A stretch of 64,000 nt of DNA from contig SJBG01000008.1 in the NCBI GenBank assembly GCA_004332195.1, forward strand, positions 38,207-102,206, in the 5' to 3' direction. Position numbers and translations under genes: made by a program. A model generated the notes under the pieces. It worked only from the letters and a program-made list of their open reading frames with translations. It was not told the origin of the DNA and did no database searches. The stretch is from Desulfobulbaceae bacterium. Its GTDB lineage: Bacteria; Desulfobacterota; Desulfobulbia; Desulfobulbales; Desulfurivibrionaceae. How positions within the stretch are numbered: position 1 is the stretch's first letter; each line of letters starts with the position of its first letter. Positions 21,451 through 64,000 of the stretch are shown piece after piece.

Positions 21451-23097
21451 TTAACCCTCCACTCCTGTCAGGGGCGCGAAACGGAGATCCATTTCCCGCT
21501 CTTTTTCTCCCTCCATAATGAGGGCGTTACCGACCAGTTCCGAAACCCCGCAGACTTCCACCTCGGGATTCCAGTATTGATTAAGGGCCAGCAAGGTGGC
21601 CCGATCAAGAGCACAGATACAAGAGAGCATATTGACCCCGTGCCGGTTAGCGACATAACCCACCGCATTAGCCCGGGGCAGGCCGGCCCGCATCCGCAGA
21701 TCCATGATCTCATTGGTATTGAGACCGGTGCCGCTGCCGCAGCAGAAGGTTTTTTCCCGAATGGTGTTTTCCGGCATTTCGTAAAAGTTATTGCAGACGC
21801 TGTTGAGCAGATAACGAGGCTCGTCCAACAGACCCATGCCGCGCGCGGGGTTACAGGAATCGTGGTAAGTGACAACCCGGTGGTCGTTGCGGCTCTTATC
21901 GATTTTAAGTTTGTTGTGGTAGATCAAGTCGGCGGTGAATTCGTTGATATGCACCATCTTGGTGCTGGCCGCGTTGGTAAAAACCGTGCCGGTAATCGAC
22001 GATTTGGGCTGTTCGAGAAAATCCGCCGGGCCGTTCATGGTGTCCATGTACTGGTGCACAACCCGCCACATATGACCGCATTCGCCGCCTAAAATCCATT
22101 TGACCCCCAGGCGCTTGGCCTCGGCATATATTTTGGCGTTGAGTTTTTTCATCAACTGGTTGTTGGTAAACAGACCAAAGTTACCGCCCTCCGAGGCGTA
22201 GGTGCTGATGGTGTAGTCCAGACCGATATGGTCGAATATCAGCAGATAGCCCATGAAGGTAAAGATCCCGGGATCGGCAAAAACATCAGCCGAGGGAATG
22301 ACAAACAGGTGCTCCGCCCCCTTACGGTTGAAGCTGAGACTTTGCAGCCGCACGCCGGTGGCCTCTTCAATGTCGTCCAAAAGAAACTCGGCGTTTTCCT
22401 TAAAGGTGTGCGGCTGCAAGCCAAGATGGTTGCCGGTGCGGTTAGAGTTAGCCGCCGGCTCCAAAATCCAGTTGGTATTGACCCCGACCAGGTGGAGCAG
22501 CTCGCGGCCCATCATGGTTATTTCGGCGGCATCAATCCCGTAGGGGCAGAAAACCGAACAGCGTCGACACTCGGTGCACTGATAGTAGTACATGAACCAT
22601 TCCTTCAAAACTTTGAAGGTCATGGGCCGGGCCCCGGCGATTTCACCCAGAATTTTGCCGGCTAAGGTGAAGTTATTGCGATAGACTGAACGCAGTAGTT
22701 CGGCCCGCAAAACCGGCATGTTTTTGGGATCACCGGTACCGAGAAAAAAATGGCACTTATCGGCGCAGGCCCCGCAGCGCACGCAGCAATCCATAAAAAC
22801 TTTTAATGAGCGAAACTTATCCAACCGCTCCTTAATCCCGTCAATGATAATTTCCTGCCAATTTTCCGGCAGTTGCCAGTCGTCGCTCTCCACGTCCCAA
22901 TCGCGAGGCTCACCAAAAATACCGGACAGGTTCTTGCGGTGATACTCGACGATACTCTTTTTGGCCGGATAGCAGTAATTGCCCGGCTTAAAGATCGCCT
23001 CCACCTCCCACCAGTTACCGGTGGGCACGGCGCCAGTTATCAGGGACGGCTCCGTGACCACCTTCGCCTTCATCTCTGCTACTTTGGTATCTGCCAT
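21451..23097 (-). CDS. dsrK: DsrK, HdrD-like Fe-S/CCG-domain subunit
   Basis: CVRCGACADKCHFFLGTGDPKNMP; CTECRRCSVFCPYGIDAAEITMMGREL; CCGSGTGLNTNEIMDLRM. Confidence 0.95.
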   Translation of the reverse strand: MADTKVAEMKAKVVTEPSLITGAVPTGNWWEVEAIFKPGNYCYPAKKSIVEYHRKNLSGIFGEPRDWDVESDDWQLPENWQEIIIDGIKERLDKFRSLKVFMDCCVRCGACADKCHFFLGTGDPKNMPVLRAELLRSVYRNNFTLAGKILGEIAGARPMTFKVLKEWFMYYYQCTECRRCSVFCPYGIDAAEITMMGRELLHLVGVNTNWILEPAANSNRTGNHLGLQPHTFKENAEFLLDDIEEATGVRLQSLSFNRKGAEHLFVIPSADVFADPGIFTFMGYLLIFDHIGLDYTISTYASEGGNFGLFTNNQLMKKLNAKIYAEAKRLGVKWILGGECGHMWRVVHQYMDTMNGPADFLEQPKSSITGTVFTNAASTKMVHINEFTADLIYHNKLKIDKSRNDHRVVTYHDSCNPARGMGLLDEPRYLLNSVCNNFYEMPENTIREKTFCCGSGTGLNTNEIMDLRMRAGLPRANAVGYVANRHGVNMLSCICALDRATLLALNQYWNPEVEVCGVSELVGNALIMEGEKEREMDLRFAPLTGVEG

Positions 23098-23141
23098 GAT
23101 CGTTGTTCCTTATCGTCAATAATTGTTTGCGTCTTGCACAC

Positions 23142-23174
23142 GGGGCAAGGGGCAAGGGGCAAGGGGCAAGGGGG
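23142..23174 (+). repeat. (GGGGCAA)4GGGGG tandem repeat, G-quadruplex motif in dsrM-dsrK intergenic region
   Basis: Read directly: GGGGCAAGGGGCAAGGGGCAAGGGGCAAGGGGG. Confidence 0.97.
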
Positions 23175-23198
23175 CCCAAAAGGGCAGAACCAGCGTCA

Positions 23199-24251
23199 TC
23201 AAGTTTTGGCTTGTTCAGTCGAGGCTTGAGCGGCTTCTTCCGGCTCGGCTACCGCGAGTTCCTGGTCCACTGGTAAATCGGCGCCAATCATGACTTCGCG
23301 GAATTCATCTTCGTAAGCCGCGTAAGAACGAGGCTTGATCTTGGGGTCGTTCCACGGATTTTTGTGGCGCACCATCCGGCTGTTATTGGCCATATTGCGC
23401 GTCGGGCTCATAAAAACTCCACCGGCATGCATCAGCTTGCTGAAAGGAAAATAGACCAACAAGACGCAAACCAGAAAGATGTGGACAAAAAAGACCACGC
23501 CAATTTCATCACTAATTGCCGGGGTGAAGGTGGTCAGCCCGACGCTCAGCTCCTTGATCGCCACGACATCAACCCGAAAGACGTGCCGCATCAGAATACC
23601 GCTGAGCCCGATGGCAAAGAGCAACAGCAAGGGAAAATAATCGGCGGGTAGGGAGATGTAGCGAAGATAGGGTTTCACCAGGCGGCGCAGAAAGAGAAAA
23701 GATACCGCCGCCAGCAGGATGAAGCCAGACAGGTAAATGGTAGTAGCCCCGATTTCAAGAAAACCGTCGATAAACTTCAGGGGAAGCACAAAACCCACAA
23801 TGGGGTCGGTAAAGAGGCGCATATGGCGCAGAATAATAACCAGCAAGCTGTAGTGGAAGAGCAGGGCGAAGAGCCAGAGCCACTTACTGGAGCCGTAAGC
23901 CAACTTGGGGCCATCGTGAACTGAGGCCTGGGTGTTGCGAAAGAGCGAGCGGAACAACAAAACTTCCAGCAGCACCCGCCCGACTGCTCCGGCCTTGGTA
24001 GATGGGCAGTCCAGCTTGTTCTGCCTGATAAAAGGCAGGGAGTTAGCCTGTCCGCAGGTAGTGGTGATCCGAAAGGGCACCGGCGACTTAGCCCAGCTCA
24101 CCACCCTATAGATAAATCCACCAAGAAAAACAATAATTGCCAGATAAGGCAGCACTATGCCTAGCAAAACTTGCCCGCCAGGCACCTGGGCCAACACCAA
24201 GGCGACCAGGATTAGCGCCACAACCGCGATAAAGGCTTGCAGGACTCTCAT
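23199..24251 (-). CDS. dsrM: DsrM, membrane cytochrome b (NarI-like) subunit
   Basis: Multi-TM NarI-like protein (LWLFALLFHYSLLVIILRHMRLF...FPFSKLMHAGGVFMSPTRNMANNSR) upstream of dsrK. Confidence 0.93.
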   Translation of the reverse strand: MRVLQAFIAVVALILVALVLAQVPGGQVLLGIVLPYLAIIVFLGGFIYRVVSWAKSPVPFRITTTCGQANSLPFIRQNKLDCPSTKAGAVGRVLLEVLLFRSLFRNTQASVHDGPKLAYGSSKWLWLFALLFHYSLLVIILRHMRLFTDPIVGFVLPLKFIDGFLEIGATTIYLSGFILLAAVSFLFLRRLVKPYLRYISLPADYFPLLLLFAIGLSGILMRHVFRVDVVAIKELSVGLTTFTPAISDEIGVVFFVHIFLVCVLLVYFPFSKLMHAGGVFMSPTRNMANNSRMVRHKNPWNDPKIKPRSYAAYEDEFREVMIGADLPVDQELAVAEPEEAAQASTEQAKT

Positions 24252-24319: not shown

Positions 24320-24907
24320 TCATGGGTTAACGGTTAACCCTGGGATTTTATCCGCCAACCGGGATGCTGAACAACCGTGCTGGGTGTGCATATAATTCAT
24401 GCTTTTGATTTCGTTGATCTGAGTTTGAAAAAGTCGCTCCCGACTAGCCATGTAAAGATCAAAAACTACCAAGGCCACCCGATCGACAATGTCATAAAAA
24501 CGCTCCCATTCCGCCGCAATTACCACCAGATTGCGTTCTTGGCCAACGAACTGACGCACTACGGTTTTCAGGTCAAAAATGAAAAGCACTGCTGAGGCCG
24601 GGGTAAAGGTCTGAACGGCCCGGATCTTGACGAAGGTTGCCAGCTCGTTCCGAATTTGCTCCATATTTGGTTCCGAATCCGGCTGATCAAAAAGTAAGGA
24701 ATAAACGGCGCTGAGGGTGTGCCGGGTACTGTAGCCCACGGGATTGGCGAAGCGGTCTTGTTCCCGTTTGAAAATAGCGGAGGCATCCGCAGCATAACCA
24801 TCCAGGACTCGATTGATCCAGCGCTGCTGAATTTCCCCTTTGTTTTCCTCTAAAAACCGCGCTAACCTCATCTCCTGGTTCTCCACCTTATTAAAAGCCA
24901 TTCCCAC
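24320..24907 (-). CDS. RsbRD N-terminal domain-like sensor/regulator upstream of dsrM
   Basis: LARFLEENKGEIQQRWINRVLDGYAADASAIFKREQDRFANPVGYSTRHTLSAVYSLLFD resembles RsbRD_N proteins. Confidence 0.7.
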   Translation of the reverse strand: MGMAFNKVENQEMRLARFLEENKGEIQQRWINRVLDGYAADASAIFKREQDRFANPVGYSTRHTLSAVYSLLFDQPDSEPNMEQIRNELATFVKIRAVQTFTPASAVLFIFDLKTVVRQFVGQERNLVVIAAEWERFYDIVDRVALVVFDLYMASRERLFQTQINEIKSMNYMHTQHGCSASRLADKIPGLTVNP

Positions 24908-62982: not shown

Positions 62983-63348
62983 TCAACCCAGCTCAAAGGC
63001 ATTTTTGATATGCTCTATGGTCGGTTTGCCCTTGGTGAAAATTACTGCCACCACATCAAAGCGGGCCGCCACCCCCTGGGCCTTTTCTCGAAGCAGATAT
63101 TCGCGAGCCGCCAAGGCAATTTTGCCCTGTTTATGACGAGTAATCGCCTCTAAAGGAGAGCCGAAAGCCAAAGTATTGCGACTTTTCACTTCGACAAAAA
63201 CCAACTCGTCTCGATCAAGGGCTACAATATCCAGCTCAGCGCCCCGTGTGCGATAGTTGCGGGCCAGGATTTGATATCCGGCCTGTTCAAGAAAAGAGCT
63301 GGCCTGCTCTTCGCCTCGACGACCTAAGCCTTGTCGTTGCCAGGTCAT
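62983..63348 (-). CDS. YraN family protein (UPF0102, predicted endonuclease)
   Basis: GRRGEEQASSFLEQAGYQILARNYRTRGAELDIVALDRDELVFVEVKSRN. Confidence 0.92.
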   Translation of the reverse strand: MTWQRQGLGRRGEEQASSFLEQAGYQILARNYRTRGAELDIVALDRDELVFVEVKSRNTLAFGSPLEAITRHKQGKIALAAREYLLREKAQGVAARFDVVAVIFTKGKPTIEHIKNAFELG

Positions 63349-64000
63349 ACCAAGGGATCCAGACCGCGAGCGACCGGTTTGAAACTGCGACGATGGATGG
63401 GGCAGGGGCCATGCTCACCGAGCAGACACAGGTGTTCGGCAGTGCCATAGCCCTTGTGACGACCAAAATTGTATTGAGGATATTGAAGATGATAATCGGC
63501 CATGATCGCGTCGCGCCGCACCTTGGCCACAATGGAGGCGGCAGCGATGGAGGCGCTGCGGGAATCCCCTTTGACCAGAGCTTGTTGGGGCAGATCCAGT
63601 GGTATTTTGAACTTGCCGTCCACCAAAATAAAATCGGGTAAAAGAAGATTAGACCAAGCAAAATCCGTGATCAAGGACATCACCGCCAGCTTCATGGCCA
63701 ACAGTGAAGCCTGGAGAATGTTGATCCGATCAATTTCCGCAGCGTTCACCACTCCGATCCCTTGACGGCAACCGGGCATGGCTAAAATTTCTGCCGCCAG
63801 TTCCCGGCGCATCTTGATACCCAGTTGCTTGGAATCGCGAAAACGGCTGACCAAGCAGGCATTCACGGCATTGCAATCTTTCGAGACCCGGCAATTTTGC
63901 GAGTGGCCAGGGGCGTGGCCAGGGGCGTGGCCAGGGGCGTGGCCAGGGGCGTAGACAACGGCACAGGCGGCGGCCACGGGCCCAGATAAAGATCCCCGCC
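63345..64000 (-). CDS. rnhB: Ribonuclease HII (partial, runs off right edge)
   Basis: RGSLSGPVAAACAVV at right edge; RDSKQL; ILVDGKFKIPL; VKGDSRSASIAAASIVAKVRRDAIM; YPQYNFGRHKGYGTAEH. Confidence 0.92.
   Translation of the reverse strand, partial: RGSLSGPVAAACAVVYAPGHAPGHAPGHAPGHSQNCRVSKDCNAVNACLVSRFRDSKQLGIKMRRELAAEILAMPGCRQGIGVVNAAEIDRINILQASLLAMKLAVMSLITDFAWSNLLLPDFILVDGKFKIPLDLPQQALVKGDSRSASIAAASIVAKVRRDAIMADYHLQYPQYNFGRHKGYGTAEHLCLLGEHGPCPIHRRSFKPVARGLDPLV
63904..63951. repeat. 12-bp unit repeated 4 times in frame within rnhB
   Basis: TGGCCAGGGGCG x4, encoding APGHAPGHAPGHAPGH. Confidence 0.97.

Follow-up and report, generated by a model that had tools for sequence, protein, structure and literature searches.

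Heptanucleotide repeats have been described as the most abundant type of repeat in the majority of genomes covered by one survey and have been ascribed to polymerase slippage (PMC4679880, PMC4692102). A Beggiatoaceae genome carries 169 TAACTGA sets (PMC4679880). The closest described systems are the G-rich, quadruplex-forming heptamer repeats of Xanthomonas (GGGAATC) and Nostoc (GGGGA(C/T)T), which fold in vitro and most commonly lie less than 50 nt upstream of an ORF with their G-rich strand antisense; a regulatory role was not identified for these repeats, their position was deemed compatible with regulation, and phase variation was deemed unlikely (PMC4692102). In Geobacter metallireducens, 49 elements consisting of four GGACCGG repeats have been proposed to be regulatory (PMC2700814). 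We found no account in the literature of GGGGCAA as a bacterial repeat or of tandem repeats in Desulfurivibrio.

The repeat described here is located between dsrM and dsrK of a Desulfurivibrio-like bacterium, in the window (i.e., the whole 64-kb stretch of DNA that was analyzed), where the relevant features are as follows.

23142..23174, plus strand: (GGGGCAA)4GGGGG heptanucleotide array, a potential four-tetrad quadruplex with CAA loops (identified from the sequence and by repeat and motif scans)
23199..24251, minus strand: dsrM (NF038037, 491.8 bits)
21451..23097, minus strand: dsrK (NF045796, 706.1 bits)
23098..23198, minus strand: untranslated dsrM-dsrK spacer of 101 nt, which holds the array (delimited by gene coordinates; congener spacers are 49-71 nt and have no array)
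23098..23117, minus strand: dsrK ribosome-binding region, in which GATAAGGAAC precedes the ATG; congeners are nearly identical here

At these coordinates, the plus strand reads exactly (GGGGCAA)4GGGGG, as an earlier note on this DNA had reported; the array is 33 nt long, with G-tracts of 4, 4, 4, 4, and 5 nt and loops of CAA. As a perfect tandem array of a 7-nt unit with at least four tracts of at least 3 G and short loops, it has the sequence characteristics of a quadruplex-capable heptanucleotide simple sequence repeat. The array is intergenic, and the gap of about 100 nt in which the earlier note had placed it measures 101 nt, as given by the coordinates of dsrM and dsrK; the dsrK start codon is found 44 nt downstream of the array and the dsrM stop codon 24 nt from its other edge. 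With both genes on the minus strand, dsr transcription uses the G-rich strand as its template and the dsr mRNA strand carries CCCCC(TTGCCCC)4, so the note was also right in placing the G-rich strand opposite the mRNA and a C-tract repeat in the transcript. An intact ribosome-binding site for dsrK is retained, and the GATAAGGAAC end of the spacer is nearly the same here as in congeners. A frameshifted dsrM tail was ruled out; the dsrM C-terminus aligns with those of congeners and terminates in two stop codons. Past dsrK, the gene order is dsrJ, dsrO, and dsrP, while a gene for a protein with an RsbRD N-terminal domain (PF14361, 62 bits) is found directly upstream of dsrM, at 24320-24907; a protein of this type beside dsrMKJOP is a possible sensor or regulator.

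Within the window, GGGGCAAGGGGCAAGGGG, a two-and-a-half-unit pattern searched with up to two mismatches, gave three overlapping matches as compared to 0.02 expected from dinucleotide shuffles, and the longest period-7 run comprised 25 matching positions as compared to no more than 11 in 40 third-order Markov simulations. The array was also the sole quadruplex motif with tracts of at least 4 G in the 64 kb (0.04 expected). As these shuffle, Markov, and motif counts are far above expectation, the array is real rather than a random succession of single bases; its natural cause would be tandem duplication. Quadruplex motifs with tracts of at least 3 G were at background level in the window (8 vs. 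5.5 expected). A stronger tandem array (12 bp × 4.2; GTGGCCAGGGGC) is located at 63903-63952; on the minus strand it is in frame and encodes (APGH)4, near the N-terminal part of an ORF (63345-63998, minus strand) whose product we take to resemble RNase HII.

The G-rich strand of the array can probably fold as a very stable quadruplex in K+, given that the similar published oligonucleotides (GGGGACT)3GGGG and (GGGGATT)3GGGG fold with a T1/2 above 95°C in K+ (PMC4692102); by this analogy, the quadruplex potential that had been proposed for the array is borne out. Modeling of the G-rich strand with RNA parameters likewise strongly favored the quadruplex (-37.7 vs. -11.1 kcal/mol). One could thus envision that a template-strand quadruplex serves as a functional roadblock, which lowers passage of RNA polymerase from dsrM into dsrKJOP and thereby sets subunit ratios. 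The strand, the high stability of similar oligonucleotides, and the position of the array, which represents the preferred class among the Xanthomonas and Nostoc repeats (PMC4692102), are all consistent with such a roadblock, and template-strand quadruplexes, by contrast with non-template ones, block T7 RNA polymerase in vitro (PMC7341879). Comparison with relatives, however, makes a functional roadblock unlikely. Among 109 relative dsrMK loci, of which 85 were distinct and which represented approximately 700 kb in all with flanks, the array was absent from all 85 distinct loci, including those of four congeners (G001-G004) that encode DsrK proteins with 88-89% identity and have spacers of 49-71 nt; moreover, neither two tandem GGGGCAA units nor three CCTTGNN units were found anywhere in the 109 loci and their flanks. 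The same-site conservation that would be expected of a cis-regulatory dsr element was hence not seen (0 of 85 distinct loci), the array is a singleton in its genome, and congeners have a working operon that lacks it. Because the DsrMKJOP subunits assemble into a single complex, stopping transcription downstream of dsrM would be expected to carry a cost. GGCCTTGCC is present in the spacer of two congeners and represents a possible single-unit seed from which the array may have grown, with the alignment being ambiguous.

A function that is specific to one species may be compatible with absence of the array from relatives, and some effect on dsrK transcription may exist, since T7 RNA polymerase can be stopped in vitro by template-strand quadruplexes (PMC7341879). 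The most far-reaching version of this idea, in which a template-strand quadruplex of variable length works like a rheostat that adjusts the proportion of membrane cytochrome DsrM to DsrKJOP and provides lineage-specific control of core sulfur energy metabolism, nevertheless appears very unlikely.

Variation in unit number is plausible for an array of this type, and a related proposal is that slippage alters the number of units and that dsrK is hence switched, or its expression tuned, from cell to cell in a phase-like manner. The array is a perfect short tandem repeat, and quadruplex repeats have been found to raise mutation rates in E. coli (PMC7023247), both of which fit a contingency locus; on the other hand, the array is noncoding, with about 20-45 nt between it and the dsrK ribosome-binding site and start, and RNA folding predicted an unpaired probability of 0.55-0.69 for the dsrK start across 0-8 units, with no trend. 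Further evidence against a contingency locus is that the stretch scanned for promoters had no promoter-like site on the dsr strand and that, for comparable repeats, phase variation was judged unlikely (PMC4692102). In addition, core energy genes would be unusual targets, and overall we regard phase-like switching of dsrK as decidedly remote. Predicted folding of the spacer RNA was ordinary (z = -0.73), by which a structured RNA in the spacer was rejected; two tRNAs were the only Rfam families found in the window, and neither a promoter nor a terminator was predicted on the dsr strand within the spacer. The regulatory role at dsr that the earlier note had put forward is therefore not upheld, in view of the absence of the array from 85 of 85 distinct relative loci, its occurrence as a genome singleton, and the finding that predicted accessibility of the dsrK start does not change with the number of units.

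The C-rich stretch of the mRNA, CCCCC(TTGCCCC)4, could also be envisioned to load Rho and hence cause polarity between dsrM and dsrK in this genome, which does encode Rho (TIGR00767, 689 bits). However, the C-over-G excess at the array (17 in 78 nt) is not distinctive, because it is exceeded by a stretch inside dsrM (19) and because an excess of at least 19 occurs in hundreds of windows across the 64 kb; as the array is also unconserved, we consider Rho loading at this site extremely improbable.

Genome-wide pattern searches identified the array as the sole instance of a GGGGCAA triple in its own genome (1.66 Mb, 21 contigs), even when two mismatches were allowed, and as the sole instance of a CCTTGNN triple. 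A heptamer family dispersed through the genome, as in Xanthomonas, Nostoc, and G. metallireducens, was accordingly not found, with one array in the genome; one other motif with four G-tracts and 3-nt loops is present on contig 15. With a stated completeness of 100, this genome of 1.66 Mb may possibly be reduced, as two near-complete congeners have genomes of 2.8 and 3.1 Mb.

GGGGCAA triples were found in 6 of 258 Desulfobulbales genomes (no matches for the reversed control pattern) and in 4 of 247 genomes of a phylum-wide sample (one control match). Elsewhere in the Desulfobulbales, the GGGGCAA unit is part of a mixed and patchy heptad family, CCTTGNN, which has two variable bases. Across 61 CCTTGNN arrays, for which counts are descriptive because the loci were chosen for carrying arrays, CCTTGAA (104) and CCTTGCC (90) were the most common units; 46 of the arrays were located outside ORFs of at least 100 aa, even though ORFs of that size, spurious ones included, account for 87% of the sequence that was read. 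The number of arrays fell off as unit counts rose above three, which was the minimum searched for, and arrays of four units were not in excess. Since neither strand of CCTTGAA contains a run of 3 or more G, the feature that is shared by the family is the 7-nt period rather than quadruplex capacity. In the congener G003 (contig 3, 74000-93900; L144), CCTTGNN arrays separate small genes one by one over approximately 13 kb, among them a putative gene for a PIN-like protein and several pieces of what may be an ATPase-like gene; this stretch is a possible recombination-prone island. Long arrays of up to 13 units are located at contig ends at L145, L148, L149, L150, L151, and L162 (G220, G225), where assemblies probably break, so array counts represent lower bounds. 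Viral spread was considered and rejected, as a 3.5-unit array was found in only 3 stretches of an IMG/VR scan.

We consider it likely that the array is a slippage-born heptanucleotide microsatellite that is tolerated in the untranslated dsrM-dsrK spacer of one species, and it is probably quadruplex-capable and near-neutral. Slipped-strand replication would have created and expanded the array, GGGGCAA on the plus strand and TTGCCCC on the mRNA strand, with quadruplex stalling at replication possibly aiding slippage. The array would be tolerated because the spacer is untranslated and the dsrK ribosome-binding site is intact, and it would alter the transcription of dsrKJOP as compared to that of dsrM only slightly, if at all. 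The proposed slippage origin is supported by the perfect 7-nt periodicity of the array, which far exceeds chance, by its absence from relatives and its occurrence as a singleton, and by the patchy CCTTGNN family. As a counterpoint to the near-neutral reading, the array falls into the same position class as the Xanthomonas and Nostoc repeats, which was thought to be compatible with regulation (PMC4692102). Were dsr subunit ratios indeed tuned by the array, this bacterial operon would offer a clean natural experiment on a template-strand quadruplex.

Overall, the array belongs to the already described class of G-rich bacterial heptamer repeats and represents a lineage-specific example of this class, located inside an operon for core energy metabolism. 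Among the CCTTGNN arrays of other Desulfobulbales, which resemble it in being mostly outside ORFs, one of the two most common units is CCTTGCC (reverse complement GGCAAGG, the same array); those arrays, however, are long, composed of mixed units, clustered (e.g., in the 13 kb on contig 3 of G003), and in many cases located at contig ends, whereas the dsrM-dsrK array is made up of a single pure unit and is the only one in its genome. In these heptads the 7-nt period persists after loss of the G-tracts, which argues that heptamer repeats expand by period and not through quadruplex function. With the G. metallireducens GGACCGG elements, found in a related group, the array shares an organization as about four tandem G-rich heptamers between genes, but the unit is a different one and there are 49 dispersed copies there as compared to one array here. 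Resemblance to the Xanthomonas and Nostoc repeats extends further, to a 7-nt period with at least four tracts of 3-4 G and loops of 3-4 nt, as well as to an intergenic position between co-directional genes, with less than 50 nt to the downstream ORF and an antisense orientation of the G-rich strand; while those repeats are spread genome-wide, the unit here is GGGGCAA, present as a genome singleton whose folding is predicted by analogy to theirs.
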